Origin: Saccharopolyspora soli
GTDB taxonomy: Bacteria > Actinomycetota > Actinomycetes > Mycobacteriales > Pseudonocardiaceae
Assembly: GCF_022678645.1 (NCBI RefSeq)
Contig: NZ_JALBWV010000015.1
Span: 1-64,000 of the forward strand
DNA: 64,000 nt
Direction: 5' to 3'
Shown: piece after piece, positions 8,498-59,828 of the stretch
How positions within the stretch are numbered: the stretch's first letter is position 1
How the letters are laid out: each line of letters begins with the position of its first letter
Translations under genes and position numbers: made by a program
Notes under the pieces: generated by a model
What the model was told of the DNA's origin: nothing
What the model saw: the letters and a program-made list of their open reading frames with translations, nothing else
Databases searched by the model: none

Positions 8498-8765
8498 CTC
8501 GTTTTGCGTGGCGGTGCGAGTAGCGGAACCTCAGAGGCATTCTCGACTCCGGGATCCCCGACTTACGTATGACCAATACGCGGCGTCGGGGCTGTCCTCG
8601 CGGGGAGAACCCCAGAAGGGTGGGCACCGTGAACCCGCGGCCGTGCAAGTTGCATAGGTGGGCCAAGCGGCTTCGCCGCTTGCGACGGGACAGGTGCGGG
8701 TCAGTTGCTTGTCGCGGTAGCGGTTCACCGCCGAAAGCGGCTACGCCGCTTGCCTGACGGGACTC
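8498..8765 (+). repeat. RF1 interspersed element, copy A (diverged, compound)
   Basis: Begins with the terminal motif CTCGTTTTGC, then GCGAGTAGCGGAACCTCAGA, the GGGATCCCCGAC core, GTCGGGGCTGTCCTCGCGGG, GCGGCCGTGCAAGTTGCA and the hairpin AAGCGGCTTCGCCGCTT at 8665-8681. A second terminal-type hairpin (AAGCGGC-TAC-GCCGCTT) follows at 8735-8751, as if two copies or a duplicated end are joined. Its variable stem is more eroded than in other copies. It lies between convergent genes. Confidence 0.8.
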
Positions 8766-8798
8766 ACATTGAGCGCACCAACCCGCCGAACTATCCAG

Positions 8799-9548
8799 TC
8801 ACTCGCCGGTTTCCGTCGTGCCTTCGGTGTCTTCCTTGGACTCTTCTTCCGCGTCCGACGACTCCTCTTCTGGGAGCAGGGCTTTGAGGGCTGCTCCCTG
8901 GATTCGGCGGAAGGTGCGGTGCGGGCGGGCTCGGTCGAGGACTGCCACTTCCAACTGGCCCATGCCCAGCTCTCGGGTGCTGTCCCCTCCGGAGGACAGC
9001 GCCTCGATCGCCAGCTTCGCCGCGTCGGCGAGTTCCAGCCCGTCGCTGAAGGAGTCCTTTAGCGTGCTCGCGATCGCGTCGGCTTGGCCGCCCATCACGA
9101 CGTACTGCGGTTCGTCCACGATGGACCCGTCGTAGGTCAGCCGGTACAGCTGGTCGGTTTCAGCCGTGAACCCGACCTCGGCCACGCAGATCTCCACCTC
9201 GAACGGTTTGATCTGCTCGGTGAAGATCGCCCCCAGGTGCTGGGCGTAGGTGTTGGCCAGCGACCGGCCGGTGACGTCCCGGCGGTCGTAGGAATAACCG
9301 CGGACGTCGGCGATGCGCACCCCGGCCACCCGCAGCGCCTCGAACTCGCTGTAGCGGCCGACCGCCGCGAATCCGATGCGGTCGTAGATCTCGGCGACCT
9401 TGTGCAGCGTCGGCGACGGGTTCTCGGCGACGAACAGCACGCCACCGGCGTATTTCAGCACCACCACGCTGCGGCCCCGCGCGATGCCCTTGCGGGCCAA
9501 CTCGGAGCGCTCCCGCATCAACTGCTCGGGAGAGGTGTAGAAGGGCAT
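8799..9548 (-). CDS. prcA: Proteasome alpha subunit PrcA
   Basis: About 249 aa from the ATG giving [18 protein letters not shown], which matches the usual PrcA N-terminus; a GTG two codons upstream is also possible. The alpha subunit builds the outer gating rings of the 20S core. Conserved stretches include [51 protein letters not shown] and [20 protein letters not shown]. The acidic, Glu-rich C-terminus (after [17 protein letters not shown]) is typical. It follows prcB by 63 bases on the same strand. Confidence 0.97.
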
Positions 9549-9611
9549 CGTCACGGCTGTGCACTCCTGGTTCGAATCTGCTCGCTCGGGCAGGCGGGAT
9601 CGGGCGCGGCG

Positions 9612-10466
9612 TCAGCCGCCGGGGTTCTCCAGTCGACCGTTGACCACCTCGGTGGCGATCTCGGCCGCCCGGTCCTCGGACACCCGCACGGCGCCGTCCG
9701 CACCGGTGATCGTGATGATCGACGGGTAGATGCGCCGGGACACGTCGGGACCACCGGTCGCGGTGTCGTCATCGGCGGCGTCGTAGAGCGCCTCGACCGC
9801 GGTGTGCGCGGCCTCGTCGACGTCGGCGTCCGGGTCGTAGCGCTTCTTCAACGCCGATTTCGCGTACGGCGAACCCGACCCGACCGCGTGGTAGCCGCTC
9901 ACCTCGTTGTACCGGCCGCCGACGACGTCGTAGGAGACGATCCGACCGGCCCGGTCCGGGTCGTCGGCTTCGGTGTCGTAGCCGACGAACAGCGGCACCA
10001 CCGCGAGGCCCTGCATCGCGGCTGGGAGGTTGCCGCGCAGCTGGGTGGCCAGCTTGTTCGACTTGCCGTCCAACGAGAGCGGGACACCTTCGAGTTTCTC
10101 GTAGTGCTCCAGCTCCACCGCGTACAGCCGAACGATCTCCTGCGCGACCCCGGCGGTACCGGCGACGCCGACCGCCGAGTAGGCGTCGGTGACGAACAGC
10201 TTTTCCATGTCCCGCTGGGCGATCAGGTTGCCCATGGTGGCCCGGCGGTCACCCGCCAGCAGCACGCCGCCGCGGAAGGTCACCGCGACGATCGTCGTGC
10301 CGTGCGGGGCCTGCACAGCACCCTCCGGTACCTGCCGACCGCCGGGCAGCAGTTCGGGCGCGGCGGCGCGGAGGAAGTCGGTGAACGAAGAAGATCCCGG
10401 CGTGAGGTAGGCGGCGGGCAGGGCCTGACCCGGAAACTGGGCCGAGCTCGGTTCCATCAGCGACAT
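9612..10466 (-). CDS. prcB: Proteasome beta subunit PrcB
   Basis: 284 aa precursor. The catalytic inner-ring subunit; autocleavage after VQAPHG exposes Thr57 of [20 protein letters not shown] as N-terminal nucleophile, leaving a 56-residue propeptide. The active-site Asp ([10 protein letters not shown]) and Lys (MEKLFVTD) motifs and the GTAG turn ([10 protein letters not shown]) are present. GGGAGA lies seven bases upstream of the ATG. It sits between pup and prcA in the usual order, but a strong hairpin separates it from pup, which may set the ratio of Pup to core particle. Confidence 0.97.
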
Positions 10467-10532
10467 CGTCTCCCGATCGAAGGCTTGCGTCAGAGTGCAC
10501 TTTAGTCATGACCCGACACGCAGCGAACGCTG

Positions 10533-10556
10533 CCGGGCCGGTCGACACCGGCCCGG
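10533..10556. terminator. GC-rich hairpin between pup and prcB (possible attenuator)
   Basis: A perfect 10-bp inverted repeat CCGGGCCGGT/ACCGGCCCGG with a CGAC tetraloop lies in the 131-base gap between pup and prcB. No T-run follows on the minus strand, so it may act as a partial terminator, a 3'-end stabiliser for pup mRNA, or an RNase stop. Function is inferred from position only. Confidence 0.6.
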
Positions 10557-10597
10557 ACTCGGCACGCGCGGACAGCGTCGGACTCCGGGCCCGCTGG

Positions 10598-10789
10598 CTA
10601 CTGCCCGCCCTTCTGCACGTAGGCGCGGACGAAGTCCTCGGCGTTCTCCTCCAGGACGTCGTCGATCTCGTCCAGGATGGCGTCGACGTCCTCGCCGAGC
10701 TTTTCGCGACGTTCCTGACCGGCAGCCTCTGGGCCCTGCTCTTCGTCCCCGTCGCCGCCGCCGTGCCGCTGAACCTTTTCCTGGGACAT
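10598..10789 (-). CDS. pup: Prokaryotic ubiquitin-like protein Pup
   Basis: 63 aa from MSQEKVQRHGGGDGDEE, with GGGAGG eight bases upstream; an in-frame upstream ATG would add 21 unsupported residues. Pup is a disordered tag. The middle helix (LGEDVDAILDEIDDVLEENA) is the Mpa/Arc-binding coiled-coil region and the C-terminus ends YVQKGGQ. The final Gln means the product must be deamidated to Glu by Dop before PafA can ligate it. Short for callers' defaults but unmistakable. Gene order dop-pup-prcB-prcA matches other actinobacteria. Confidence 0.97.
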   Translation of the reverse strand: MSQEKVQRHGGGDGDEEQGPEAAGQERREKLGEDVDAILDEIDDVLEENAEDFVRAYVQKGGQ

Positions 10790-10950
10790 CTTGCCTCCCG
10801 GTGGTTTCCCGTCGGGTGTCCCCTGGCCGTGGGGACATCCTGCTGTGAACACTACCTATCCGACCACCCGTTCGCCCACAGCCAGCCGGGCGTCATTTCG
10901 ATCTTCGCGCACAGCTGACATGCGCGAAACGTGGTTTTCGGACCGCTAGG

Positions 10951-12450
10951 TCACCCTTTTGTCAGCGAGTCGACCAGTTCCTCCGCACTGGCCGCGGCCT
11001 CCAGCAGCGCGCCCACGTGGGCACGTGTGCCGCGCAGCGGTTCCAACGTCGGGATGCGCACCAGCGATTCCCGGCCCAGGTCGAAGATCACCGAGTCCCA
11101 GGACGCCGCGGCCACCTCGGCCGGGTAGCGCTCCAGGCAGCGGCCGCGGAAGTAGGCGCGGGTGTCCTCCGGCGGCGTCGTGACCGCGGTCCGCACCTCG
11201 TCCTCGCTGACCAGGCGTTTCATCGAGCCGCGGGCGACCAGCCGGTTGTACAGGCCCTTGTCCAGCCGCACGTCGGAGTACTGCAGGTCGATCATGTGCA
11301 GCCGCGGCGACGCCCAGCCCAGGCTGTCCCGGGTCCGGTAGCTCTCCAGCAGCCGCAGCTTGGCGGGCCAGTCGAGCCGGTCGGCGCAGTCCATCGGGTC
11401 GCCGCCGAGCAGGTCCAGCACCTCGCCCCAGGTCTCCAGCACGTCCCGGGCGGCGCGCTCGCCGCCGTGCTCGTCGAGGTGCTGCGCGGCACGTTCGTGG
11501 TAGGCGCGCTGCAGGTCCAGGCCGGTGAACCGGCGCCCGTCGGTGAGCTCGACGGTCTGCTTGAGGGTGGGGTCGTGGCTGATCAGGTGCACCGCCTGCA
11601 CCGGATCGGCCAGCTTCAGGTCGTCGAAGCGCAGCCCGGCCTCGATCATGTCCAGCACCAGCGCGGCGGTGCCCAGTTTGAGGAACGTCGAGGTCTCCGC
11701 GAGGTTGGCATCGCCGATGATGACGTGCAGTCGGCGGTACTTGTCCGCATCGGCGTGCGGTTCGTCGCGGGTGTTGATGATGCCGCGCTTGAGGGTGGTC
11801 TCCAGGCCGACTTCGACCTCGATGTAGTCGGATCGCTGCGAGAGCTGGAAACCGGCCTTCTCCCCGGCCTGGCCGATGCCGACCCGACCCGATCCGCAGA
11901 TCACCTGGCGGGACGCGAAGAACGGGGTGAGGCCACCGATCACCGAGGTGAACGGGGTGCTGCGAGCCATCAGGTAGTTCTCGTGGGTGCCGTAGCTGGC
12001 GCCCTTGCCGTCGACGTTGTTCTTGTACAGCTGGATCGGCGCGGTGCCGGGCACGCTGGCCGCCCGGATGGCCGCCTCTTCCATGACGCGTTCGCCCGCT
12101 TTGTCCCAGATGACCGCATCGCGCGGATTGGTCACCTCCGGTGCCGAGTACTCCGGGTGCGCGTGGTCGACGTACAACCGCGCGCCGTTGGTGAGGATGA
12201 CGTTGGCTGCCCCGAGGTCGTCACCGTCCGAGCCGTTGGTCTGCTGCGCCGCAGTGCTGAGGTCGAAGCCGCGGGCGTCGCGCAGCGGCGACTCGACCTC
12301 GTAGTCCCAGCGCGCGCGCCGCGCCCGCGGGATGTCGGCCGCCGCCGCGTAGGCCAGCACGATGTGCGTGGAGGTCAGCACCGGGTTGGCGCTGGAGTCG
12401 CCCGGCACGACGATGCCGTACTCCACCTCGGTTCCCATGATCCGCCGCAT
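10951..12450 (-). CDS. dop: Pup deamidase/depupylase Dop
   Basis: 499 aa from [18 protein letters not shown]; upstream in-frame codons are not supported by homology. Dop deamidates the C-terminal Gln of Pup and removes Pup from substrates. The N-terminal Glu (GTEVEYG) binds metal-ATP, and [12 protein letters not shown] carries the nucleophilic Asp at residue 95. A 30-40 residue insertion between about 50 and 85 ([19 protein letters not shown]) is the Dop loop that distinguishes it from the paralogous Paf[21 protein letters not shown] and [20 protein letters not shown] are shared with PafA. Confidence 0.97.
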
Positions 12451-12603
12451 ACCTCGCAGCGTACGGGGTATCGCCGACCAAGCGGAGTGCCGCACGCCAC
12501 AGGCACCCGACTCGTTCGAACTCATTTCCCGGTTCGGCGCAACACGTGTGCTTCGGCGGGCAGGTGCGACGATCGGGATGTGGGTTCAGAACGTGTCTTC
12601 GAA
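12451..12603. promoter_or_regulatory. dop upstream region
   Basis: 153 bases between the dop start and RF1 copy B. This must contain the dop promoter. No convincing -35/-10 pair with normal spacing or known operator could be assigned by eye. Confidence 0.4.
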
Positions 12604-12783
12604 CTCGTTTTGCATGGCGGCGCGGGTAGCGGAACCTCGGGGGCCGTCTCGGTCCGGGTCCCCGACATCATGTATGCCAAATACACCACGTCGAGGCTGT
12701 CCTTCCGAGACGGCCCTTGAGAACCCGGGGCGGTGCAAGTTGCAAGGGTGGGCTAGGCGGCTTCGCCGCTTCAAAAAACAAGA
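12604..12783 (+). repeat. RF1 interspersed element, copy B
   Basis: Starts CTCGTTTTGC and ends with GGCGGCTTCGCCGCTT then CAAAAAACAAG, so both terminal inverted repeats are intact. Stem arms are GGGCCGTCTCGG on the left and CCGAGACGGCCC on the right, a perfect 12-bp match that differs from the arms of other copies. It lies between the divergent dop and NUDIX genes and ends 28 bases before the NUDIX start, so it is part of that gene's leader or promoter region. It happens to be open in one reading frame, which could mislead gene callers. Confidence 0.85.
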
Positions 12784-12811
12784 ACAAGACAGCCACTCAG
12801 ACGAGGAATCG

Positions 12812-13300
12812 GTGGCCGTGTACGACGCGGCCGGGCGTGTCGTGGGCAGCGCGTCGCGGCGGCGGATGCGCGCCGAAGGTCTTTGGCACGCGGCGTCGTC
12901 GGTGTTGGTGCTCTCCCCCGACGGCAGCGAGGTCTACGTGCACCGCCGCACTGACACCAAGGACATCTATCCCGGCATGCACGACTGCTGGGCAGGCGGC
13001 GTGGTCGCCGCCGGGGAGGACCCGGACGTCACCGCGCGGCGCGAACTCGCCGAGGAACTGGGGGTGCGCGAGGTGCCGGTGCGCTTCCTGTTCCGAACCG
13101 TCCACGAGCTGGGCAGTGTGCGGTTCCACGGATACCTCTACGAAACCCGTTGGGGCGGCTCAATCGTCCACCAGCCCGAAGAAGTCGCCGAGGGCTGGTG
13201 GATGCCGCTGAGCGAGCTCCGCGAGCGCCTGAGCGACCCGCACTGGCCATTCGTACCCGACGGACGCCAGTTCATCGAAGAATGGTTCGCCCGGTCCTAG
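12812..13300 (+). CDS. NUDIX hydrolase (YfcD-like)
   Basis: 162 aa from a GTG with GAGGAA five bases upstream; the frame is open much further 5' but only because it crosses an RF1 repeat. The NUDIX box is complete: GGVVAAGEDPDVTARRELAE followed by ELGV (GX5EX7REXXEEXG). The N-terminal pattern VAVYDAAGRVVGSASRRRMR and WHAASSVLVLSPDG plus YVHRRTDTKDIYPGMHD resemble YfcD-type proteins related to isopentenyl-diphosphate isomerase. Likely cleaves a nucleoside-diphosphate-linked substrate; the substrate is unknown. Flanked on both sides by RF1 copies. Confidence 0.9.
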   Translation: MAVYDAAGRVVGSASRRRMRAEGLWHAASSVLVLSPDGSEVYVHRRTDTKDIYPGMHDCWAGGVVAAGEDPDVTARRELAEELGVREVPVRFLFRTVHELGSVRFHGYLYETRWGGSIVHQPEEVAEGWWMPLSELRERLSDPHWPFVPDGRQFIEEWFARS

Positions 13301-13312
13301 CCTGCATCTGGA

Positions 13313-13502
13313 CCCGTTTTGCGTGGCGGTGCGGGTAGCGGAACCTCAGAAGCCATCTCGCTGTGGGATCCCCGACATCATGTACTTCCAATTCGCAGTT
13401 TCACTGCGCTGTCGGGGCTGTCCTCGCGAGAAGACTTCTGAGAACCTGCGGCGGTGCAAGTGCCGTACGTGAGCTAAGCGGCTTCGCCGCTTCAAAACAA
13501 GA
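13313..13502 (+). repeat. RF1 interspersed element, copy C (alternative loop)
   Basis: Full-length, from CCCGTTTTGCG to GCTTCAAAACAAGAG. Variable stem reads AAGCCATCTCGC against GCGAGAAGACTT. The central loop differs from most copies: after CATCATGTACTTCCAATT it has the small hairpin CGCAGTTTCACTGCG instead of the CAATACACCACG form. It lies between the convergent NUDIX and aldo/keto reductase genes. Confidence 0.88.
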
Positions 13503-13532
13503 GCAAAAACACATTCAGAACGCCTTCAAACC

Positions 13533-14557: not shown

Positions 14558-14575
14558 TTTCGGCCTTAGCTCTCT

Positions 14576-14753
14576 TTCTTTGTAAGCGGCGCCAGCCGCT
14601 TGCGGTGAGGCAAGCAACTGGCACCGCCGCGGGTTCTCAGACGTCGTCTCGCGAGGACAGCCCCGACGTGGTGAATTGGACATTCATGATGTCGGGGATC
14701 CCACAGCGAGACGGCGTCTGAGGTTCCGCTACCCACACCGCAACGCAAACCAG
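14576..14753 (-). repeat. RF1 interspersed element, copy D
   Basis: Inverted relative to copies A-C. Read on the minus strand it has GGTAGCGGAACCTCAGACG, the stem GACGCCGTCTCGC pairing with GCGAGACGACGTC, the GGGATCCCCGAC core and a terminal hairpin AAGCGGC-TGGC-GCCGCTT. The terminal repeats are weaker (CTGGTTTGCG and CTTACAAAG). It lies just downstream of the arc stop codon. Confidence 0.87.
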
Positions 14754-14770
14754 CCCTGGAACAACTCTTG

Positions 14771-16564
14771 TTACAGGTACTGGCCGGTGTTGGTTGCTGT
14801 GTCGATCGCTCGGCCGGATTCCTGGTTCTTCCCGCTCACCAGGGTGCGGATGTAGACGATCCGCTCGCCCTTCTTGCCGGAGATGCGGGCCCAGTCGTCC
14901 GGGTTCGTGGTGTTCGGCAGGTCCTCGTTCTCCGCGAACTCGTCGATGATGGCGTCCTGCAGGTGCTGCACCCGCAGGCCCGGCTGGCGGGTTTCCAGCA
15001 CCGACTTGATCGCCGCCTTCTTCGCCCGGTCCACGATGTTCTGGATCATCGCGCCCGAGTTGAAGTCCTTGAAGTACAGGACCTCCTTGTCACCGTTGGC
15101 GTAGGTGACCTCCAGGAACCGGTTCTCCTCGGTCTCGGCGTACATCCGCTCGACCGTGGTCTGGATCATCGCCTCCACGCACGCGCCCTTGTCGCCGCCG
15201 AACTCCTTGAGGTCCTCCTCGTGGATCGGCAGTTCCTTGGTCAGGTACTTGGAGAAGATGTCCTTGGCCGACTCGGCGTCCGGACGCTCGATCTTGATCT
15301 TCACGTCCAGTCGACCGGGCCGCAGGATCGCCGGGTCGATCATGTCCTCCCGGTTGGAGGCGCCGATGACGATGACGTTCTCCAGCCCTTCGACGCCGTC
15401 GATCTCGCTGAGCAGCTGCGGCACGATGGTGGTTTCCACGTCGGAGGACACCCCGCTGCCGCGGGTCCGGAAGATCGAGTCCATCTCGTCGAAGAACACG
15501 ATCACCGGAGTGCCCTCGGATGCCTTCTCCCGCGCCCGCTGGAAGATCAGGCGGATGTGCCGCTCGGTCTCCCCGACGAACTTGTTGAGCAGTTCGGGGC
15601 CCTTGATGTTCAGGAAGTAGGACTTGGCCTGACCATCGTCGTCCCCGCGGGCGGCGGCGACCTGCTTCGCCAGCGAGTTGGCGACCGCCTTGGCGATCAG
15701 CGTCTTGCCGCAGCCCGGCGGGCCGTAGAGCAACACGCCCTTGGGCGGCCGCAACTGGTACTCGATGTACAGGTCGGAGTGCAGGAACGGCAGCTCCACG
15801 GCGTCCCGGATCTGCTCGATCTGGCCAGCGAGCCCACCGATGTCCTGGTATCCGACGTCGGGGACCTCCTCCAGCACGAGGTCTTCGACCTCGGCCTTGG
15901 GCACGACGTCGTAGGCGTAGCCCGCCTTGCTGTCGACCAGCACCGAGTCGCCAGCCTTCAGCCCGGACGTGGCCAGCGGTTCGGTCACCCACACCACGCG
16001 TTCCTCGTCGGTGTGGCCCAGCACCAGCGCACGCGGACTTTCCCCGGCGCCGCTGGACAGGAGCTCCCGGAAGGTGCAGACCTCACCGGTTTGCTCGAAC
16101 GCACCAGCCTCTACCACCGTCAGGGCCTCGTTGAGGCGCACTGACTGGCCCAGTCTCAGTTCCTCCGTCTCGACGTTGGGTGACACCGCCACCCGCATCT
16201 TGCGACCAGACGTGAACACGTCGACCGTGCTGTCCTCGTAGCGGTGCAGGAACACTCCGTAGCCGCTCGGCGGTTGGGCTAGTCGGTCGACTTCCTCGCG
16301 CAGGGCCATCAGCTGGCTCCGCGCTTCCTTGAGGGTCTCGGTGAGTTTGGCGTTCCGTTCGGTGAGCTGGCTCACTCTCTCGGATGCCTCGGCCAGCCGC
16401 TTTTCCAGCAACCGGACCTGTTGGGGAGACTCGTTGAGCCTGCGGCGAAGCAGAGCGACCTCGTCTTCCAGGAGACGAATCTGGCTGCGAAGTTCTGCGG
16501 AGCCACCGCTGTACTGCTCGCCGCCCTCCTCATTCGGTCGGCTGCCGGGACGGTCGTGCTGCAT
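14771..16564 (-). CDS. arc: Proteasome-associated AAA ATPase Arc/Mpa
   Basis: 597 aa from [15 protein letters not shown], with GGAGG about ten bases upstream; the open frame extends further but without family similarity. An N-terminal coiled coil (about 20-85) binds Pup; two OB domains follow (about 95-230); then the AAA module with Walker A GPPGCGKT and Walker [10 protein letters not shown]. The C-terminus ends TGQYL, the HbYX-like tail that docks into the alpha ring and opens the gate. The hexamer unfolds pupylated proteins and feeds them to PrcBA. The presence of this ending indicates a functional pair with the core particle encoded about 5 kb away. Confidence 0.97.
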
Positions 16565-21683: not shown

Positions 21684-21721
21684 CCGGGAACCCCGGGCGG
21701 GGTTCGGGGCCTGTCGTGGTT

Positions 21722-21902
21722 CTTGTTTTTGAAGCGGCGCCAGCCGCTCAGCCCACCTACGGCGCTGGCACCGCCGCGGGTTCTCAGAAGTCTTCTCGGG
21801 AGGACAGCCTCGACGTGGTGTATTGGACATATATGATGTCGGGGATCCCGGACCGAGAAGGCTTCTGAGGTTCCGCCACCCGCACCGCGGAGCAAAACGA
21901 GC
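21722..21902 (-). repeat. RF1 interspersed element, copy E
   Basis: Inverted orientation, full length. On the minus strand the ends are CTCGTTTTGC and CAAAAACAAG; stem GAAGCCTTCTCGG pairs with CCGAGAAGACTTC with one mismatch; the core is GGGATCCCCGACATCATATA. The terminal hairpin arm is partly decayed. Between the convergent RecB-like and VOC genes. Confidence 0.88.
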
Positions 21903-21914
21903 TTGGAAACAGAT

Positions 21915-22760
21915 TCAATCCTCGTAGGGGTCGTAGTTGGCGGCTGTGCCGAAGTCACCGGCTTGGGTCGGGTCGATGACCGCGAAGCGGCCTCCGGTGG
22001 GGTCCCGCAGCACCGCGACTCGGCCGATGCTTGAGTCGTACGGATCCACCCGGACCCGGCCGCCGAGGGCGATCGCGTTGTGCACCAGGTCGTCGGTGCC
22101 GATCGCCGCGTCCACACCCAGGTACAGCAGCCAGTGCGGGTGGGTGTTCTCGCTGATGAACTCGCGGATCATGCTGACCCGCGCGAACACCGACTCGTCG
22201 CCGAGGTACCAGACCGAGTAGTCCGAGCGGTGTTCGGTGCCGAACTGCTCGGCGGTGTAGCCGAACAGCTCCTGGAAGAAGTGGTCCGCGGTCTGCGCCT
22301 TGATGGTGACCAGCTCGGCCCACATCAGGGTGCCCGGCAACCCGACGTCGAACTGCCAGGACTCCTCGGGTTCCAGCAGTCCGAACTCGGCGTCGGCCGG
22401 ACCCATCAGCACGGCCTTGGCGCCCACCCGCGGCACGTGGTTGCGCGGCACGGTCAGCGCGGCGCCGAGCGACTCGGCCTGCGCGATGGACGCCGCGCAG
22501 TCCGATGTCGCGAGGTAGAGCCGCCAACCTGACTGGTCGCCGGAGGCGGCACGCAGGCTCGCCACCGGGAATCCCTCGCGCAACGCGATCACGTGCTCTC
22601 CGGAGACCGGGTCGCGATGTGTCTCGTACTCCCAGTCGAAAAGCCCCGCGTAGAACTCGCAAGCCCGTTCCAGATCCGTGCTGATCAGCTCTATCCAGCA
22701 GGGCATCCCCGCGTAGAGCTCCCACCGCGGCGGGGTCGTTCCCGGTACCACGACGGCCAT
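21915..22760 (-). CDS. VOC family protein, two glyoxalase-like domains
   Basis: About 281 aa from MAVVVPGTTPPRWELYAGMP, preceded by GTGAGGAA; a longer start adds nine residues. Two vicinal-oxygen-chelate halves: CWIELISTDLERACEFYAGL (about 20-125) and MWAELVTIKAQTADHFFQEL (about 145-270). The second half ends with VAVLRDPTGGRFAVIDP, a common VOC ending. Members range from glyoxalases to antibiotic-binding and hydroxylase-like proteins; metal ligands are not clearly assignable, so function is open. Similar two-domain proteins are widespread in Streptomyces and relatives. Confidence 0.85.
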   Translation of the reverse strand: MAVVVPGTTPPRWELYAGMPCWIELISTDLERACEFYAGLFDWEYETHRDPVSGEHVIALREGFPVASLRAASGDQSGWRLYLATSDCAASIAQAESLGAALTVPRNHVPRVGAKAVLMGPADAEFGLLEPEESWQFDVGLPGTLMWAELVTIKAQTADHFFQELFGYTAEQFGTEHRSDYSVWYLGDESVFARVSMIREFISENTHPHWLLYLGVDAAIGTDDLVHNAIALGGRVRVDPYDSSIGRVAVLRDPTGGRFAVIDPTQAGDFGTAANYDPYED

Positions 22761-23030
22761 TTCCTCACCCCCACCGGCTCGTTTCAAGATCGTCCAGGCA
22801 CCCCATTATCCGCAGTGGGCGCGGCTCGGTGGGCCAGTCTGGTCACATTCCGATGGAGCAACCCGACGTTTCGGACAACATCACGAAGATTGCGGCGTTC
22901 GTCGGAAGACCGAACGAGAACGCCACGTCCAGCCTCGCGCGATGCGAGCGGCGTGAACATCACATTCGCCCGAACAGCCCAACGCCTGCGCCAAAACGGG
23001 CTTGGTAGCCCTTGGAGCCCGTCTTTGGTC
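22761..23030. other. Gene-free stretch upstream of the VOC gene
   Basis: 270 bases between the VOC start and RF1 copy F. I see no coding frame with family character, no strong hairpin and no known RNA motif; it is expected to hold the VOC promoter. Confidence 0.4.
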
Positions 23031-23174
23031 CTTTTTTGAAGCGGCGAGCCGCTTAGCCCACCTACGCAACTGGCACCGCCGCGGGTTCTCAGACGTCGTC
23101 TCGCGGTGATGTCGGGGATCCCACAGCGAGACGGCGTCTGAGGTTCCGCTACCCACACCGCAACGCAAAACAAG
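23031..23174 (-). repeat. RF1 interspersed element, copy F (internal deletion)
   Basis: Inverted copy. Both ends and both arms of the variable stem (GACGCCGTCTCGC with GCGAGACGACGTC) are present, but about 35 bases of the central loop, including the GTCGGGGCTGTCC strand and the loop half next to it, are missing. It lies just after the hisG stop codon. Confidence 0.85.
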
Positions 23175-23188
23175 CTTGGAAGACAGGC

Positions 23189-24037
23189 TTAGAGGCGGCA
23201 GGCGCGGATGTCCGAGGACAGGATGGCCTTGGCCCCCACCGTGACCAGGCGGTCCATGATCGCTGGCGCTTCCTTGCGGGAGACCATCGCGCGCACCGCC
23301 ACCCACCGTTCGTCGGCCAGCGGCGACATCGTCGGCGACTCCAGGCCGGGGGTCATCTTCGTGGCGTCGTCCAGCAGCTCGCGCGGGCAGTTGTAGTCCA
23401 GCATCACGTACTGCTGCGCGAACACCACCCCCTGCAGCCGGGCGACGAGCTGGTTCTTGGCCGACTCCGCGTCCGAACCGCGCCGTTGGATCACCACCGC
23501 CTCGGATTCGCAGATCGGGTCGCCGAAGGCGACCAGGCCGTGCTGGCGCAGGGTGCGGCCGGAGCCGACCACGTCCGCGATGGCGTCGGCGACACCGAGC
23601 TGGATGGAGATCTCCACCGCGCCGTCGAGTCGGATGACCTCGGCGGTCACGCCGTGCCGGGCCAGATCGTCGGCGACCAGCTTCGGGTAGGAGGTGGCGA
23701 TCCGCTTGCCCTGCAGGTCGGCGACGGTCCACTCGTGCGGACCGGCGGGTGCGGCGTAGCGGAAGGTGGAGTTGCCGAAGCCCAGCCCGAGCCGCTCCTC
23801 CACCGGGGCGCCGGAGTCCAGGGCCAAGTCGCGGCCGGTGAGCCCCAGGTCGAGCTCGCCGGAGCCGACGTAGATCGCGATGTCCTTGGGGCGCAGGAAG
23901 AAGAACTCGACGTCGTTGGTGGTGTCGAGCACCGTCAGGTCCCGCTGCTCATGGCGCTGCCGGTACCCGGCTTCCGCGAGCATCTCGGATGCGGGACCGG
24001 CCAGCGTGCCCTTGTTGGGCACAGCCACACGCAACAT
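23189..24037 (-). CDS. hisG: ATP phosphoribosyltransferase (long form)
   Basis: 282 aa, first step of histidine synthesis: ATP + PRPP to phosphoribosyl-ATP. The long form carries a C-terminal ACT-like regulatory domain (about 210-282), here with [20 protein letters not shown], that mediates histidine feedback. The catalytic part begins [20 protein letters not shown] and contains the PRPP loop [17 protein letters not shown]. In relatives hisE lies immediately upstream; here an RF1 copy of about 180 bases sits between hisE and hisG. Confidence 0.97.
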
Positions 24038-24069: not shown

Positions 24070-24253
24070 GGTCGTCTTGGATAGCGGTGCGGGTAGCGGA
24101 ACCTCAGACGCCCTCTCGGTCCGGGATCCCCGACATCATGTATGTCCAATACACCACGTCGAGGCAGGTCCTCCCAGAGAACGCCAGTGGGCACAGTCTG
24201 AGAACCCGCGGCCGTGCAAGTCGTGGAGGTGGCAGGAAGCGGCTTCGCCGCTT
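24070..24253 (+). repeat. RF1 interspersed element, copy G (partly diverged right arm)
   Basis: Left half is standard (GCGGGTAGCGGAACCTCAGA, GGGATCCCCGACATCATGTA). The right stem arm is diverged: CCCAGAGAACGCCAGTGGGC stands before TCTGAGAACCCGCGGCCGTG, so pairing survives only in CTCTC/GAGAG-type and TCAGAC/GTCTGA segments. Ends in AAGCGGCTTCGCCGCTT. It lies within the hisE-hisG gap and is oriented opposite to those genes. Confidence 0.83.
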
Positions 24254-29998: not shown

Positions 29999-30106
29999 AG
30001 CACCCAGCGTACGAGCGGTTACCAACCCGATTCCCAGAGTGTGGTAGCCGACCGCGCCACCGCTTAACAGGGGCGCGCGGATTGGGCAAAACGAGCCGCG
30101 CACCCT

Positions 30107-32464
30107 CTAGATGACGTCGTGGTGTTGCAGGTAGCGGAACACCGCGATGCCGGGGAGGACCGGGAGCCAGTAGGTCAGCAGCCGGGAGACCAGCACCGCG
30201 GTCACCGCCGCCGTCGCGGGCACGCCCATCGCGCCGAGCCCGGCCAGCAGCGCGGCTTCCACCGCGCCAAGTCCGCCGGGCGAGGGCACGAGGTGGCCGA
30301 GCGTGCTGCCGACGATGAACACGACCGTCACGGCCGTCCAGGAGAAGTCCGGGTGGAAGGCGGCCAGGGTCGCGGCCAAGCCCAGGCCCGACACCACGAG
30401 GTAGCCGAACGCACCGCCGAAGAGCTGGACGGCGCGGACCGGATGCCGCAGCGTGTCGAGCAACTCGCGGCTGACCTCCAGCGCCGGGCGGACGACCTTC
30501 CGGCGACCGAACGGCGAGCCGACCACAACACCGGCGACCGCCAGCACCGCTGCGACGGCCGCGAGCACCGGCCAGCCGGTCGGGATGGACAGGTGGCCGA
30601 ACGTCCCCGCCATTCCCGCGCCGAACGCCCCGACAACGGCCACGACGAACGCCACCGCCCCGGTGCCCGCCTGGTTCAGCAACGTCACCCCGACCGCCAG
30701 CGGCCGACGCAGCCCCAGTCGTTCCATGTAGACCACGTTGATGCCGAAGAACCCGGCACCGCCCGGCGTGGTGCGCCCGGTGAACGCGGCGGCCATCTGC
30801 ACCGCGAAGGTGCGCCAGAACGGCAGCGGGATCCGGCTGGAGCCCTGCACGGAGATCGACGACAGCAGGATCGCCGCGAACCCGGTCAGCACGGCCACCA
30901 CCAGCCAACCCCAATTGGCCTGCCGCACCGCCGCTAGCACATCGCCCATGCTGGACAGCTCCGGCAGCAGCAGGTACACCGCAGCACCGATGAGCAGCAG
31001 GCCAACCACGGTGATCGGGCGAACCGGGGAGCGGAACCCCGGAATCGGGCGGCCGAGGCCGTCCGCGAGCGTCTCGCGCAGCTCGGCCATCAGATAGCGC
31101 CTGCGCTCCGCTTGGGCCTGGATCCGCCTCGGCAGCGCCAGCGGGTTCAAGTTCCGCAGCGCCGCGGCCAGTTGCTCGCTCGGCAGCGCGCGCATCGCGG
31201 TGGACACTGCCCGATCAGTGCCGACCACCGAGGCCAGCGACACCAGGGCCTCGGCCAGGTCCTGGGCGCAGCGCGCGGCGTCCGCGCCCGCGTGGCTGAA
31301 CGTGAAGCTGAGCAGCCAGGGCCGGTTCTCGGTGTCGACCAAGATGTTCTTCGCGCGCAGGTCGTGGTGGGCGATGCGGGCTCCGGCCAGGGCGGCGAGC
31401 TGGCCCCAGATCGCCGCCAGCAGCTCGTCGTCGATCTCGTCGGGTCGCATTTCCGGCAACCTGCGCCCCGCCACCTGGCACACCACCAGCAGCGCCGGGG
31501 CGTGCTTGACGTCGCAGGCCAGGACGACCTCCGGGGTGCGCACCCCGGCCCGTTCGGCGAGCAGCGTCACGTACGCCTCGTGCTCGACCTCGTGGTGCGG
31601 GGTGGACAGCCGCGGCTCGTCCTGGACGTCGAGCAGGGCGAGCAGCCGCTTGATCTTGTACCAGGGCCCAGCGCGGCGGCTCAACCGCCGCACCACCTTG
31701 ACCCGCAACGTCCGCTCGTCCTCGGTGCGGACCGCGAACTCGCGCGGTTCCAGCAGCCGTTGCCGCAGCGCGACGATCGAAGTCGGTTTCAGCCCCGCCA
31801 ACTCCAGTTCGCCGTAGATCACCTGATCGGAGATCTTGCGGCCCGGCGCACCCCAGACGACGTGGGACAGCGTCCCGACACCCCAGCCCAGCAGCGCGCC
31901 ACCCACCGCGTCCAACGGCAGATGACCGCCGAGGTGCACCACCGCCACCCCGACCAGCACGGTCAGCCCCCACCCGGCGTACCGCGCCAAGCCGCCCAGG
32001 TACGGCGCGGCGACCACCACCAGCACCGCCGTGATGGCCACTTCCTCGGCGGGGAAGGGAAACAGCCCCGGCATTGGCGCGAACACCGAACGGGCGCCCA
32101 GCAAGTGGTGCATGAGCTGGGCCAACCCCCAGGTCAACGCGCCCGAAACCGCGCACAGCAGCGCCACCCGGATCCAACCGAAGTACAACGCCACCGCGGT
32201 GACGCCCGCGATCCCGACCCACGAGCCGAGCCAGGTCAGCGCCACCCAGAGCGGGTCCGAGATCGCCGGAATGCGGTCGAGCTGCAGGTAGATGGCGATC
32301 TCGACCGGGTTGGCTGGCACCAGCACCAGCAGCACGCTGAGCACCAGCAGCCCGCCGACCAGGCCGAGCTGGGCGAAGTCCCGTGGGCGTCGGCCAATCG
32401 ACAACCGCAACCGGGATCGCGGCGAGATCCCGATCTCCTCGCTCGATGACCTGGTGCTGTCCAC
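30107..32464 (-). CDS. Large membrane protein: PAP2-like, kinase-like and LPG-synthase/flippase-like (UPF0104) domains
   Basis: About 785 aa if translation begins at the GTG giving VDSTRSSSEEIGISPRSR; an upstream ATG (position 32530) is also possible. Residues about 35-220: multi-helix region resembling PAP2 with HLGGHLPLDAVGGALLG but a degenerate SGH motif. Residues about 240-440: protein-kinase-like fold with catalytic-loop pattern HHDLRAKNILVD; the expected DFG Asp is Ser (LLSFTF). Residues about 490-785: seven to eight helices of the lysylphosphatidylglycerol-synthase transmembrane (UPF0104) type, with PGGAGFFGINVVYMERLG and LVPSPGGLGAVEAALLAGLG. A role in envelope lipid or glycan transport is inferred, not shown. 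Confidence 0.8.
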   Translation of the reverse strand: MDSTRSSSEEIGISPRSRLRLSIGRRPRDFAQLGLVGGLLVLSVLLVLVPANPVEIAIYLQLDRIPAISDPLWVALTWLGSWVGIAGVTAVALYFGWIRVALLCAVSGALTWGLAQLMHHLLGARSVFAPMPGLFPFPAEEVAITAVLVVVAAPYLGGLARYAGWGLTVLVGVAVVHLGGHLPLDAVGGALLGWGVGTLSHVVWGAPGRKISDQVIYGELELAGLKPTSIVALRQRLLEPREFAVRTEDERTLRVKVVRRLSRRAGPWYKIKRLLALLDVQDEPRLSTPHHEVEHEAYVTLLAERAGVRTPEVVLACDVKHAPALLVVCQVAGRRLPEMRPDEIDDELLAAIWGQLAALAGARIAHHDLRAKNILVDTENRPWLLSFTFSHAGADAARCAQDLAEALVSLASVVGTDRAVSTAMRALPSEQLAAALRNLNPLALPRRIQAQAERRRYLMAELRETLADGLGRPIPGFRSPVRPITVVGLLLIGAAVYLLLPELSSMGDVLAAVRQANWGWLVVAVLTGFAAILLSSISVQGSSRIPLPFWRTFAVQMAAAFTGRTTPGGAGFFGINVVYMERLGLRRPLAVGVTLLNQAGTGAVAFVVAVVGAFGAGMAGTFGHLSIPTGWPVLAAVAAVLAVAGVVVGSPFGRRKVVRPALEVSRELLDTLRHPVRAVQLFGGAFGYLVVSGLGLAATLAAFHPDFSWTAVTVVFIVGSTLGHLVPSPGGLGAVEAALLAGLGAMGVPATAAVTAVLVSRLLTYWLPVLPGIAVFRYLQHHDVI

Positions 32465-32542
32465 TGCCCGGATCGGACTTCCTCTCCCGCTGACCCACGC
32501 CGCCCAGCGCGGCGATCCGAGAAAGAGCATTCGTTGCACTTG
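32465..32542. other. Leader between flippase-like gene and RF1 copy H
   Basis: Contains the alternative ATG start at 32530 for the membrane protein gene and a GAGAGGAAG ribosome-binding-like stretch. The start choice cannot be settled by eye. Confidence 0.35.
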
Positions 32543-32709
32543 ATTCGCGGGGCGGGGCGGGTGGCGGAACCGCAGGGGCCGTCTCGCTCTGGGATCCCCG
32601 ACATCATGTACGCCCAATACACCACGTCGGGGCTGTCCTCGCGAGATGGCCCCGGACAACCCGCGGCGGCAAGTCGCACGGGTGGGCCAAGCGGCTTCGC
32701 CGCTTCAAA
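32543..32709 (+). repeat. RF1 interspersed element, copy H
   Basis: Stem arms are GGGGCCGTCTCGC and GCGAGATGGCCCC, fully paired if one G-T wobble is allowed, and different in sequence from the GACG-type copies. Core GGGATCCCCGACATCATGTA and terminal AAGCGGCTTCGCCGCTT are intact. It lies between the divergent membrane-protein and PAC2 genes, about 135 bases before the PAC2 start. Confidence 0.87.
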
Positions 32710-34964: not shown

Positions 34965-35015
34965 GGGTGAGGGGCACCCGTGACCAAGTAACTGGGGCAC
35001 GGGTGCCCCTCACCC
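34965..35015. terminator. RF2 hairpin copy 2, between convergent chitinase and peptidase genes
   Basis: Arms GGGTGAGGGGCACCCGTG and its complement pair over 18 bases, with one mismatch next to the loop. The loop region CCAAGTAACTGG is the reverse complement of that in copy 4 (CCAGTTACTTGG), so the element is present in both orientations in the window. Confidence 0.75.
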
Positions 35016-35037
35016 AGCTCCAATCGACCGGATCGGG

Positions 35038-51092: not shown

Positions 51093-51102
51093 TCGATATC
51101 GA

Positions 51103-51152
51103 GGTGAGGGGCACCCGTGACCCAGTTACGTGGTCACGGGTGCCCCTCACCC
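51103..51152. terminator. RF2 hairpin copy 3, between convergent Mo-hydroxylase and VWA genes
   Basis: Perfect 20-bp inverted repeat with arms GGTGAGGGGCACCCGTGACC and loop near CAGTTACGT. Same skeleton as the other three RF2 copies. Confidence 0.78.
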
Positions 51153-51166
51153 ATGCCCTGATCGGT

Positions 51167-54541: not shown

Positions 54542-54584
54542 GCCGACATGTGCCGCCGTACCAGAAAGGATTTCGCATGTCGGC
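54542..54584. promoter_or_regulatory. Inverted repeat GCCGACATG upstream of beta-lactamase-like gene
   Basis: Arms GCCGACATG and CATGTCGGC, perfect 9-bp pair, separated by 25 bases, in the 115-base divergent space between the MoxR and beta-lactamase-like genes. Could be part of a leader hairpin or two operator half-sites; unknown. Confidence 0.4.
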
Positions 54585-54602
54585 ACACCGGAGTAGAAAC
54601 GA

Positions 54603-54616
54603 CGTAACCCGTTACG
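54603..54616. promoter_or_regulatory. Palindromic operator candidate CGTAACCCGTTACG
   Basis: Perfect 14-bp palindrome-like inverted repeat (CGTAAC-CC-GTTACG) 18 bases before the beta-lactamase-like start codon. Length and symmetry fit a TetR- or MarR-family dimer site; no TetR gene is adjacent, so a trans regulator would be needed. Confidence 0.45.
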
Positions 54617-54634
54617 CATGCGCAGGAGGACCAA

Positions 54635-55873: not shown

Positions 55874-55898
55874 TGCACTCACGACCCCGTTCAGGTGA

Positions 55899-55951
55899 GG
55901 AGTGAGGGGCACCCTTTACCCAGTTACTTGGTAAAGGGTGCCCCTCACTCC
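55899..55951. terminator. RF2 hairpin copy 4, between convergent hydrolase genes
   Basis: Perfect 22-bp inverted repeat, with arms starting GGAGTGAGGGGCACCCTTTACC and loop CAGTTACTT. Stem bases next to the loop (CTTTACC) differ from the CGTGACC form of copies 2 and 3, and the opposite arm changes to match (GGTAAAG). Confidence 0.8.
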
Positions 55952-55993
55952 GTTCCCGTTGCGCGGTGGGGTGGGTTAGCCCCGGTTTCGGGC

Positions 55994-56938: not shown

Positions 56939-57011
56939 CCGACCAGACTGCCTCGCGCGACCAGCGCCCCGCACCCGGAGCAAGACTTGTCCTTGATGTT
57001 GTTTTTTCGGC

Positions 57012-57085
57012 GTACATGATGTCGGGGATCCCGGACCGAGAAGGCTTCTGAGGTTCCGCCACCCGCACCGCAAAGCAAAACGAGC
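57012..57085 (-). repeat. RF1 interspersed element, copy I (truncated)
   Basis: Only the left half is present: on the minus strand CTCGTTTTGC through the GCGGGTGGCGGAACCTCAGA segment, left stem arm and GGGATCCCCGACATCATGTA. The right arm, central loop half and terminal hairpin are lost. It lies between the MBL gene and an SCO1664-type gene. Confidence 0.82.
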
Positions 57086-57099
57086 ACGAATGCAGGCTC

Positions 57100-57894
57100 T
57101 CAGAACGCGGGCCAGGGGATGGCTGGCCAGTCGCCGGACGGCGCGGGGAACACCTCGGCCTCCAGCAGCCGTTCGATGCGCGCGTTGATCGCCTGGACTT
57201 CTTTCGGCGTGATGTGTTCGGCCAGCTGGACGGCGAGATCGCCTTCCATGAGGGCGCGCAGTTCGCCGAGGCGGTCGACGGTGTCGGCCGATAACCGCTG
57301 CCCGACCCAGCCCCACAGCACGGTGCGCAGCTTGTCGTCGGTGTTCAGGCTCACGCCGTGATCGACGCCCAGCACCCGGCCGTCCGGGGCGTGCAGGATG
57401 TGGCCGCCCTTGCGGTCGGCGTTGTTGATCACGATGTCGAGCACCGCGAGCTGCCGCAGCTGCTGGTGGTCGGCGTGCACCAGCACGACCGCGTCGCCGC
57501 GGTGGTCCTGGGCGCGCAGCACCGGGAGCCAGCCGGGCGGAACCTCGTCCGGGGGGACGATGTCGACCAGCTGCGAGTCCTCTTCGACGTCCACCCACAG
57601 CTGCACCATGCCTGGACCGAACGGACCGTCCCGCAACAACGTCGGCGGGATCAGCCCCCACCCGGTGGCCTCGGACAGCAGGTAGGCACCGACCTCGCGA
57701 CCGGCCAGCGTGCCGTCCGGGAAGTCCCACAGCGGACGCTCCCCGCGCACCGGCTTGTAGACGCACTCGGCGGAAGCGCCGTTGACCTCGATCCCGCAGA
57801 ACAGGGTCGCGTTGGACGCCTCCACCAGCCGCCCCTGCACATCCAACCGACCGTGCTGGAGCAGCTCGTGAACCGCGGGGTCACCGGCGCGCAC
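57100..57894 (-). CDS. SCO1664 family protein (phosphatidylinositol-kinase-like fold)
   Basis: 264 aa from GTG (VRAGDPAVHELLQHGRLDV). Family signatures: ASAECVYKPVRGERPLWDFP (Lys of a kinase-like site), GREVGAYLLSEATGWGLIPP, VLDIVINNADRKGGHILHAP, and VDHGVSLNTDD. The INNADRKGGH and VDHG motifs match the catalytic loop and metal-binding residues of PI3/4-kinase-like folds. Function unknown. Paired with DUF3090 five bases upstream, as in many actinobacteria. Confidence 0.9.
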   Translation of the reverse strand: MRAGDPAVHELLQHGRLDVQGRLVEASNATLFCGIEVNGASAECVYKPVRGERPLWDFPDGTLAGREVGAYLLSEATGWGLIPPTLLRDGPFGPGMVQLWVDVEEDSQLVDIVPPDEVPPGWLPVLRAQDHRGDAVVLVHADHQQLRQLAVLDIVINNADRKGGHILHAPDGRVLGVDHGVSLNTDDKLRTVLWGWVGQRLSADTVDRLGELRALMEGDLAVQLAEHITPKEVQAINARIERLLEAEVFPAPSGDWPAIPWPAF

Positions 57895-57899
57895 GCCGG

Positions 57900-58466
57900 T
57901 CAGACCTCTTCCGAACGGCGGTAACCGTTCTGGCGCGGGCAGATGTGCCCGGCGGGATCCAGCGGTTCGGCGCACAGCGGGCACGGCTTGCGGCCCGCGT
58001 TGATGACGCGCTCGGCGCGCTCGGCGAACGCCCGCGCGTGCGCGGGGGTGAGGAACACCCGCAGCGCGTCGGGGCCTTCCTCGGTGTCGTCGAGCACCAC
58101 CGACTCGTCGATCTCCTCGTCTGTGACCGCGAGCAGTTCGACGACCACCGCCTCGGTCTCGGCGTCCCAGCCCAGCCCCATGGTGCCGACCCGGAACTCC
58201 TCGTCGACCGGCACAGCCAGCGGGTCGGTGTCGACGAGATCGTCTGGCGCCTGACCGGGCAGCTCGGTTTTGAACCGGCGCTGCACTTCCTCCAGCAGCG
58301 CGCCAATGCGTTCGGCCAGCACCGACACCTGCTGCTTTTCGAGCTGCACGCTCACCGTGCGGACATCTTCGGACGCCTGCAGGTAGAAAGTTCGGTCGCC
58401 GGGTTCCCCGACCGTTCCGGCGACGAACCGGTCGGGTTGACGGAAGACGTGAATGACACGAGCCAT
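57900..58466 (-). CDS. DUF3090 domain-containing protein
   Basis: 188 aa from MARVIHVFRQPDRFVAGTVG. Conserved DUF3090 features: FVAGTVGEPGDRTFYLQA, long helical/strand body with acidic loops, and a C-terminal treble-clef-like zinc site CPLCAEPLDPAGHICPRQNG. Function unknown. Operon partner of the SCO1664 family protein. Confidence 0.92.
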   Translation of the reverse strand: MARVIHVFRQPDRFVAGTVGEPGDRTFYLQASEDVRTVSVQLEKQQVSVLAERIGALLEEVQRRFKTELPGQAPDDLVDTDPLAVPVDEEFRVGTMGLGWDAETEAVVVELLAVTDEEIDESVVLDDTEEGPDALRVFLTPAHARAFAERAERVINAGRKPCPLCAEPLDPAGHICPRQNGYRRSEEV

Positions 58467-58697
58467 GGCACCTCCGACACTAGGCCACCGGGCAACGGGC
58501 GTGCGCGGCTGGCCCCCGTTTTGTTCATCACCGTTTCGAACCGGCCCGGTTTCCGCCGGGTCACACGCCGGTTTACTCGCTGAGCAGGCGCCCGACCACC
58601 TGTTTCGCCGGTGTTCGCCGACGGCGAACTCCAGCGCGTTGCGCCGAGTGCGGATACCCTCACCGGCGGTGGTCAAGATCGCGGGATGGAGCACGCC

Positions 58698-59630
58698 ATG
58701 AGCATGCGCGAACTACGTCGCCCGCACAGGCTGCACAGCGGGGACACCGTGGCGCTGGTCGCCCCCGCCGGGCCGGTGCCCGAAGACCTGCTCGACGCCG
58801 GGCTGGCGCAACTGCGCTCCTGGGGCCTGCACGCGCGGGTCGGCAAGCACGTCCGGGACAGCCATCCGCGCCTGGACTACCTCGCGGGCACCGACGCCGA
58901 CCGCGCCGCCGACCTGCAGGACGCGTGGTGCGATCCGGACGTCGCAGCGGTGTTCTGCGTGCGCGGCGGTTACGGCAGCATGCGCATCCTCGACCACCTG
59001 GACTGGACCGAGATGGCCGCCGCAGGGCCGAAGATCTTCGCCGGTTCCAGCGACATCACCGCGCTGCACGACGCCTTCGCCACCCAGCTCGGCCTGGTCA
59101 CGGTGTTCGGGCCGATGCTGGCCACGAAGGCGTTCGTCGAGGACGAGGCGGCACGCGAGCACCTGCGCCGCACCCTGTTCCAGCCCGAGTCGGTCACCAT
59201 CCTGACGCGCTCCAACGCGGGCGCGCTGGTGCGCGGGCGGGCGCGGGGCATCACCTACGGCGGCAACCTGAGCATCGTCGCGGGCTCCCTCGGAGCGCCG
59301 GACGCGCCGACCCCGCCGGAGCGCGGCATCGCGATGCTCGAAGACGTCACGGAGGACCCGTACCGGCTGGACCGGTTCGTCACGCAGCTGCTGCGCGCGG
59401 GCTGGTTCGATCACGCGGCCGGAATCGCGCTCGGCTCCTGGACCGACTGCGGGCCGCTGGAAGCTGTTCACGCAGTGATGTCGGACCTGCTGGGCGGCCT
59501 GGGCGTGCCCATCATGTGGGAGCTCGGCTTCGGCCACTGCACGGCCCAGCGCACCATCCCGCTCGGGGTCGCCGCCGAACTCGACACCGACGCACAACGC
59601 CTGTCGATCCTCCAACCCGCACTCCTCTAG
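58698..59630 (+). CDS. LD-carboxypeptidase (S66 family)
   Basis: 310 aa from MSMRELRRPHRLHSGDTVAL, with GGAG six bases upstream; a further ATG four codons upstream is possible. Serine peptidase that trims L,D-linked ends of peptidoglycan peptides. Catalytic set: Ser in IFAGSSDITALHDAF, Glu in IAMLEDVTEDPYRLDR, His in ELGFGHCTAQR. No signal peptide, so the cytosolic form used in cell-wall recycling is likely. Confidence 0.92.
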   Translation: MSMRELRRPHRLHSGDTVALVAPAGPVPEDLLDAGLAQLRSWGLHARVGKHVRDSHPRLDYLAGTDADRAADLQDAWCDPDVAAVFCVRGGYGSMRILDHLDWTEMAAAGPKIFAGSSDITALHDAFATQLGLVTVFGPMLATKAFVEDEAAREHLRRTLFQPESVTILTRSNAGALVRGRARGITYGGNLSIVAGSLGAPDAPTPPERGIAMLEDVTEDPYRLDRFVTQLLRAGWFDHAAGIALGSWTDCGPLEAVHAVMSDLLGGLGVPIMWELGFGHCTAQRTIPLGVAAELDTDAQRLSILQPALL

Positions 59631-59644
59631 AGACTGTTTCAGAA

Positions 59645-59828
59645 GAGGTTTGCGCAGCGGTGCGGGTGGCGGAACCTCAGACGCCGCCTCGACTCCGGGA
59701 TCCCCGACATCATGTACTTCCAATTCGCAGTTTCACTGCGCTGTCGGGGCTGTCCTCGCGAGGCGACGTCTGAGAACCCGCGGCGGTGCCAGTTGAGTCC
59801 CACACCGCAAGCGGCTACGCCGCTTACA
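59645..59828 (+). repeat. RF1 interspersed element, copy J
   Basis: Stem arms GACGCCGCCTCG and CGAGGCGACGTC: here GCC pairs with GGC where other copies have GTC/GAC, a compensatory change. The loop is the CGCAGTTTCACTGCG type of copy C. Terminal hairpin is AAGCGGC-TAC-GCCGCTT. Between two plus-strand genes. Confidence 0.87.

Follow-up and report, generated by a model that had tools for sequence, protein, structure and literature searches.

RF1, a probable IS5-type miniature element with a covarying hairpin core and stop-codon anchoring in the Pseudonocardiaceae

RF1 copies in the Saccharopolyspora soli window

The DNA analyzed here, called the window, is a 64-kb stretch (64,000 nucleotides) of Saccharopolyspora soli contig NZ_JALBWV010000015.1 (C66), part of a 9.35-Mb draft genome. 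A sequence-only reading of the window had proposed a ten-copy repeat, RF1, and a repeat search combined with alignment placed RF1 copies at all ten of the proposed sites, with the block order, the two orientations, and the end hairpin as that reading described them. RF1 is roughly 200 bp long and consists of variable terminal inverted repeats (TIRs) flanking a conserved core; it is short, encodes no protein of its own, and contains no gene, as had been claimed. A covariance model recovered nine of the ten copies (A–H and J), and copy I was matched by a profile hidden Markov model (HMM) only. The positions are as follows.

8485–8700, plus strand: copy A, core 8499–8681, with an insert in the right arm; directly 3' of a TGA stop (8482–8484); right border approximate.
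12589–12796, plus strand: copy B, core 12605–12771, type-1 ends; flanked by TCA (12586–12588) and TCA (12797–12799), the relatives being too diverged there to confirm a duplication.
13301–13514, plus strand: copy C, core 13314–13492; 3' of a TAG stop (13298–13300); right border approximate.
14569–14770, minus strand: copy D (202 bp), core 14584–14753; TTA duplicated at 14566–14568 and 14771–14773, the latter being the TAA stop of a proteasomal-ATPase-like gene.
21710–21914, minus strand: copy E, core 21732–21900; at a TGA stop (21915–21917); left border approximate.
23015–23188, minus strand: copy F, core 23039–23173, inner hairpin deleted; at the TAA stop (23189–23191) of a hisG-like gene, with TTG on the other flank, an imperfect duplication; left border approximate.
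24072–24253, plus strand: copy G (core), with an insert in the right arm; no stop at the 5' end.
32540–32705, plus strand: copy H (core); no stop anchoring called.
56992–57099, minus strand: copy I, truncated to the 5' half, HMM match 56992–57082; at a TGA stop (57100–57102).
59631–59837, plus strand: copy J, core 59645–59825, type-2 ends; 3' of a TAG stop (59628–59630); right border approximate.
30060–30108, minus strand: probable deletion derivative with type-3-like ends only; borders approximate.

Several details of the earlier description, which on the whole is partly supported, needed revision. Where the true outer border could be placed, it lay about 7 to 16 bp beyond the start first given. 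The single kind of end that had been described gave way to at least three kinds of imperfect TIR in the S. soli genome, here numbered types 1 to 3 and judged by eye. The copies had all been called intergenic; copy B apparently lies within the first codons of a gene, at its 5' end, and relatives have this gene uninterrupted. Seven of the ten copies (A, C, D, E, F, I, and J) begin at a stop codon, a junction that had been overlooked, and copy G lies upstream of the start of a minus-strand open reading frame (ORF) at 23189–24037. The last codons of the proteasomal-ATPase-like gene adjoin copy D, and its C-terminal residues QYL are intact.

The derivative at 30060–30108 sits at the stop of an ORF (30107–32659, minus strand) where a sister species carries a full copy. 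Type-3-like ends from which the hairpin or nearly the whole core has been deleted were also seen in L207 (about 794–863) and L208 (about 658–778). A second repeat family occupies 5502–5552, 34966–35016, 51103–51153, and 55901–55951 of the window; it is palindromic, GTGAGGGGCACC...GGTGCCCCTCAC, with variable inner arms, and one RF1 copy elsewhere (L020) is inserted into the loop of such a palindrome.

Distribution and mobility

With copy D as a DNA query, the S. soli genome yielded 313 first-look candidates, of which 40 were scored. Four contigs totaling 846 kb, the window included, held 41 copies with the 5' end present and a score above 45, and the window, with ten copies in 64 kb, was denser than the other sampled contigs. 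The covariance model, built from 32 copies of this genome, gave at least 150 matches within it. Across the genus, where 129 matches were scored per genome and often nearly all of them matched, 21 of 22 genomes, S. soli included, were positive; no match occurred in one genome, and in four the number was 5 to 37. In the low-copy genomes, the copies and their near flanks were read for a gene-enclosing copy, and the copies looked ordinary. Carriers found by exact pattern were Saccharopolyspora elongata and S. shandongensis. The family search, in which 11 matches were scored per genome under stricter filters than for the genus, found the core in 69 of 249 genomes of the Pseudonocardiaceae, representing 14 of 46 genera including Saccharopolyspora. 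A class-level sample of 394 genomes contained two positives, S. soli itself and one member of the family, and among the genomes searched carriers appear confined to the Pseudonocardiaceae.

RF1 matched no Rfam family at threshold: the window gave no match at the gathering cut-offs, and relaxed thresholds around copy D returned only four sub-threshold matches, three of them to microRNA hairpins. Phage and plasmid collections searched with one query copy gave no match, and none of the titles listed from the open-licence literature in PMC describes the element.

Empty alleles in related genomes provided evidence of movement. The site of copy D is unoccupied in five genomes (G004, G019, G020, G014, and G010), each with a single TTA in place of the two that bracket the element in the window, and in two more (G021 and G009) that carry TCA there; a second comparison again showed it empty in four sister genomes. 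Copies E, F, and J have empty alleles in relatives at the same stop codon, and copy I has one in four sister species (G007, G020, G019, and G015). Within syntenic stretches (the window and L131–L150), at least one empty allele was listed for 17 of 30 copies; the remaining 13 either failed the filters or lacked such an allele. Near-identity between some copies at different sites, about 98% over 210 to 220 bp, points to recent movement. Paired type-3 ends lie about 200 to 230 bp apart at many places, and L124 has one RF1 copy nested inside a second. In G007 (L145), the stop-codon site that holds the RF1 copy of L150 is occupied by another kind of short element, its ends resembling those of the insertion sequence (IS) in G001 (GTGAGTACTTT).

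A likely source of transposase was found outside the window, both elsewhere in the S. soli genome and in sister species. The genome has five DUF4096 loci, one of which (L151) starts with GAGCCTGTTCTTGAACTTG exactly 3' of a TGA stop. Relatives of the L151 transposase occur in 9 of the 22 genus genomes (E 1e-20), and one of these, G018, has nine near-identical full-length IS matches, eight of them of one score. The five G018 copies whose ends were read all had GTGCCTGTCTTTGATCTTG, with an identical triplet on both sides (TCA in two, TGA in three). The type-1 end motif, which had been derived from RF1 copies read before this comparison, differs from the G018 IS ends at 1 of 19 positions. The transposases of both genomes match PF13340, PF01609, and the NCBIfam IS5 model NF033580. 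By eye, four of the five G018 copies have inserted into an RF1 core, the sites being CC|TCA|G or C|TGA|GG; loci with IS5-family copies nested in RF1 cores at CTCAG or CTGAG are L165, L178, L184, and L189.

An element of the IS1031 subgroup of the IS5 family has been described with a TNA target, 3-bp repeats, and ends GAACCTGTCT... (PMC12016507). A 3-bp TNA duplication was present in all five G018 copies and at copy D; copy B has matching but unconfirmed triplets, and the others are imperfect. The proposal that RF1 behaves like a miniature inverted-repeat transposable element (MITE) is thus supported by the empty site and its target duplication, by the inverted ends and the high copy number, and by the likely donor of a transposase; for type-1 ends, a full-length relative with nearly the same ends, which had been missing from the window, exists. 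The transposon nature of RF1 is well supported by these sequence comparisons, and an IS5 transposase would move it in trans.

The association with stop codons was examined in 134 copies, obtained from 152 matches by requiring at least 130 bp and 500 bp of flank and dropping duplicates. A copy was counted as anchored when the stop of an open same-strand frame (at least 100 codons, with a third-position G+C fraction, GC3, of at least 0.78) fell between −26 and −10 of the core. By this definition, 73 of 134 copies had a same-strand stop at the 5' end, compared to 34 of 2160 random positions on contigs of the S. soli genome (Fisher test). On the 3' side, even a wider window (−52 to −8) gave opposite-strand stops in 21 of 134 (73 versus 21, binomial p 7e-8). 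The stops of the 73 anchored copies were TGA in 37, TAG in 26, and TAA in 10. TGA and TAA both conform to TNA, so an insertion at either one regenerates the stop and spares the protein. With TCA as well as TGA used by the five IS copies, few as these are, there is no indication that the transposase itself prefers one orientation; the predominance of copies with the 5' end at a stop would instead reflect selection after insertion. A crude gene-context analysis proved threshold-dependent, placing 1 of 41 or 11 of 41 elements inside a gene proxy, and was not used.

The hairpin core and its strand

The core contains a hairpin of about 100 nucleotides whose arms had been reported to change together in the ten window copies. 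Alignment A1 comprised 41 of 53 full-length copies from the S. soli genome, 12 with length changes or poor fit being left out, and A2 comprised 32 of these, nine more having been left out, six of them for aligner shifts. In A2, 95.2% of cells were paired, ten pairs changed on both sides, and the covariation score was 0.128 compared to 0.057 after shuffling; the number of further pair types in A2 was not above that of the shuffles (21 versus 21.1). A 34-copy set, mainly one per genome and mostly the best-scoring match, showed changes on both sides in 27 of 44 pairs, with a score of 0.318, whereas shuffling gave 0.084 and sliding at most 0.069. The alignment of this set was fitted to the model, which favors pairing, and an independent MAFFT alignment showed the same pairs. 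Related sequences may pass shuffle and slide controls, but the pairs nonetheless change in many combinations. The linked arm changes hold beyond the window, and the stem arms do not vary independently across genera.

The earlier suggestion that the paired changes reflect selection or gene conversion acting on a folded DNA or RNA is supported. One alternative is that the arms are kept matched by mutation alone, through quasi-palindrome template switching or conversion between copies, with no selection on the fold. The arms flip with hardly any intermediates (in alignment A6, pair 17 is C-G in 40 copies, G-C in 31, and nothing else), and copies share loop blocks, such as the 97 bases common to copies C and J at 95%; both do point to copying between arms or between copies, the C/J block marking exchange among copies, and hairpin-deleted copies such as F show that the palindrome is unstable. 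Two mismatches nevertheless persist through the turnover of neighboring pairs, a CT bulge in 112 of 123 copies and a C.A opposition in 67 of 123; arm correction should remove both, and their survival favors selection on the fold. The sequence beside the stems is also conserved across genera. We therefore regard a purely mutational origin of the matched arms as unlikely, and selection for pairing as the better account of the covariation.

A G.U pair on one strand is an A.C opposition on the other, so the ratio of the two tests which strand folds. For the top strand, 123 of 152 rows contained 79 G.U and 125 A.C cells, with two conserved wobble pairs excluded, or 36 G.U and 39 A.C when counted by pair with at least one case; the row filter demanded 36 of 44 top-strand pairs and was thus biased toward the top strand, and part of the A.C counts came from register shifts near the C.A position. 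Two smaller, earlier sets gave 17 G.U versus 33 A.C and 15 versus 38. As a comparison, 11 tRNAs had 18 G.U and no A.C, with a tRNA finder that itself favors G.U. Top-strand folding energies of the hairpin alone were −51.6 and −55.2 kcal/mol in two sets, compared to −61.3 and −63.9 kcal/mol for the bottom strand; the top-strand fold was better in just 7 of 123 copies, and the bottom strand was about 9 kcal/mol better on average. The C.A position had 109 single-nucleotide cases, of which 106 gave a standard pair on the bottom strand and 40 on the top strand. There is thus no sign of a sense RNA, and we lean toward the bottom strand, as RNA or single-stranded DNA: with top-strand G.U unenriched and the bottom-strand hairpin more stable, the fold looks selected, but not as sense mRNA.

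These results bear on a second alternative, that RF1 is a host-domesticated structured RNA whose sense fold, following the stop codon, stabilizes, terminates, or processes the upstream mRNA, its mobility being a relic. Strong covariation and the sense-oriented anchoring of 73 of 134 copies speak for such an RNA, as does an old insertion upstream of an ilvC-like gene that 5 of the 22 Saccharopolyspora genomes have in common (copies in L227, L229, L230 at 1312–1479 plus strand, L232 at 1313–1480 plus strand, and L228 at 2233–2400 minus strand). Comparison of the L229 and L230 copies at this site reveals a paired substitution, A-T to G-C, together with a single unpaired one that creates a C.A opposition, and conversion from another copy may be the source of this difference; L233 and L240 have other RF1 copies in the same gap. 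We take the genes on either side to be ilvN and ilvC from the protein start MAVEIFY and the gene order. The position of the shared copy between two operon-like, co-directional genes speaks against a strong terminator, and at least one empty allele was listed for more than half of the syntenic copies. Together with the excess of A.C over G.U on the top strand, the reverse of what the tRNAs show, and the more stable bottom-strand hairpin, this leaves the role as an mRNA end structure that had been suggested unsupported, and we consider domestication as a sense RNA quite unlikely. The 190 intergenic noncoding RNAs reported in S. erythraea (PMC3610266) would also count for this alternative if any of them is RF1.

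Interpretation and related systems

The above results are best explained if RF1 is a non-autonomous IS5-type MITE whose hairpin core is selected for pairing, possibly in the form of a folded bottom strand, a reading that we hold with good, though not full, confidence. An IS5-type transposase would act on the RF1 ends in trans, and insertion at a TGA or TAA stop would restore the stop codon and leave the protein intact. Later selection would then retain mainly those copies whose 5' end abuts the stop. The folded bottom strand could be single-stranded DNA, or an RNA read toward the 3' end of the neighboring gene. The core would most likely serve the spread of the element itself, with possible effects on the host at a few loci.

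A number of observations weigh against parts of this reading. Copy D alone has a fully clean duplication, the others being imperfect or unseen, and an automatic regular-expression test found equal flanks in 4 of 7 pairs with most ends unplaced; the duplication claim relies on the empty sites, automatic calling being poor. The S. soli IS at L151 is flanked by TGA and TCA, with no direct repeat. A PF01609 search and end scans did not find a donor for type-2 or type-3 ends, and two short type-3 end pairs are deletion derivatives rather than donors. TAG-anchored copies do not fit the TNA rule, as TAG is not a TNA site, so that 26 of the 73 anchored copies need another target, possibly CTAG. The random positions used as the anchoring control were genome-wide, not matched for intergenic location, and orthologous copies were not collapsed, making insertion events fewer than the 134 copies. 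As for the strand, the whole element folds about equally well on both; two top-strand G.U pairs are nearly invariant; A.C exceeds G.U by only 34 to 22 in the pairs common to both folds; and the inference rests on few variable sites. Finally, ordinary MITE decay does not explain a core that covaries in 14 genera.

A more ambitious form of this reading, which we consider doubtful, would make RF1 a family-wide mobile folded nucleic acid: a hairpin module active as the bottom strand, coupled to several IS5-type ends, serving as a landing pad for its own IS, and kept by the host as a single-strand or antisense signal at some fixed sites, the one upstream of the ilvC-like gene being an example.

Another source of a high-copy, intergenic hairpin with a strand-asymmetric fit would be a repetitive extragenic palindrome (REP) or bacterial interspersed mosaic element (BIME)-like sequence mobilized by a single-strand (HUH) transposase, for instance a REP-associated tyrosine transposase (RAYT), with the bottom strand as substrate; the TIRs and the 3-bp duplication at the empty site of copy D fit a DDE transposase, and an IS5 donor with near-identical ends exists, making this origin very improbable. 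Readings as a retron, group II intron, attC site, or OMEGA-type system were dropped once the ends and the duplication had been found.

The IS5-type MITE reading places RF1 close to known IS5-family elements of the IS1031 subgroup and their MITEs. The likely donor has a DUF4096/DDE_Tnp_1 transposase, a 3-bp TNA target duplication, and ends GA/GT-NCCTGTCT, as in PMC12016507; the subgroup assignment derives from target and ends, not from a tree. RF1 differs in having no gene and in joining its core to at least three kinds of end. Bacterial MITEs have been reviewed as having TIRs, direct repeats, a short core, predicted stem-loop transcripts, and mobilization by related ISs (PMC10969869); the terms "stop codon," "actinobacteria," and "Streptomyces" do not occur in the main text of that review. 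RF1 shares the TIRs, direct repeats, short core, and related IS, but its core is conserved and covarying in 14 genera and its anchoring at stop codons is oriented.

Mycobacterial interspersed repetitive units (MIRUs) are small intergenic repeats at stop/start junctions. RF1, in contrast, has inverted ends, a TNA duplication at copy D, and a covarying hairpin of about 100 nucleotides, and among the genomes searched is found in the Pseudonocardiaceae only. It shares many palindromic intergenic copies with REP/BIME and ERIC/RUP-type repeats; REPs are not known to have TIRs or target duplication, whereas RF1 has TIRs and, at copy D, a duplication.

RF1 is thus a new, family-restricted and probably IS5-type MITE whose folded core is unusually conserved and whose anchoring at stop codons is oriented. 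MITE cores are usually seen as decaying leftovers, and RF1 is unusual in a covarying hairpin kept in 14 genera, gene-end sites in one orientation, and interchangeable ends. It also serves as a warning that standard RNA covariation evidence may stem from a mobile DNA palindrome. Its very many natural copies provide a data set for testing whether selection acts on a DNA hairpin or on an antisense RNA, and for examining how mobile DNA can exploit stop codons as places to insert without harm.

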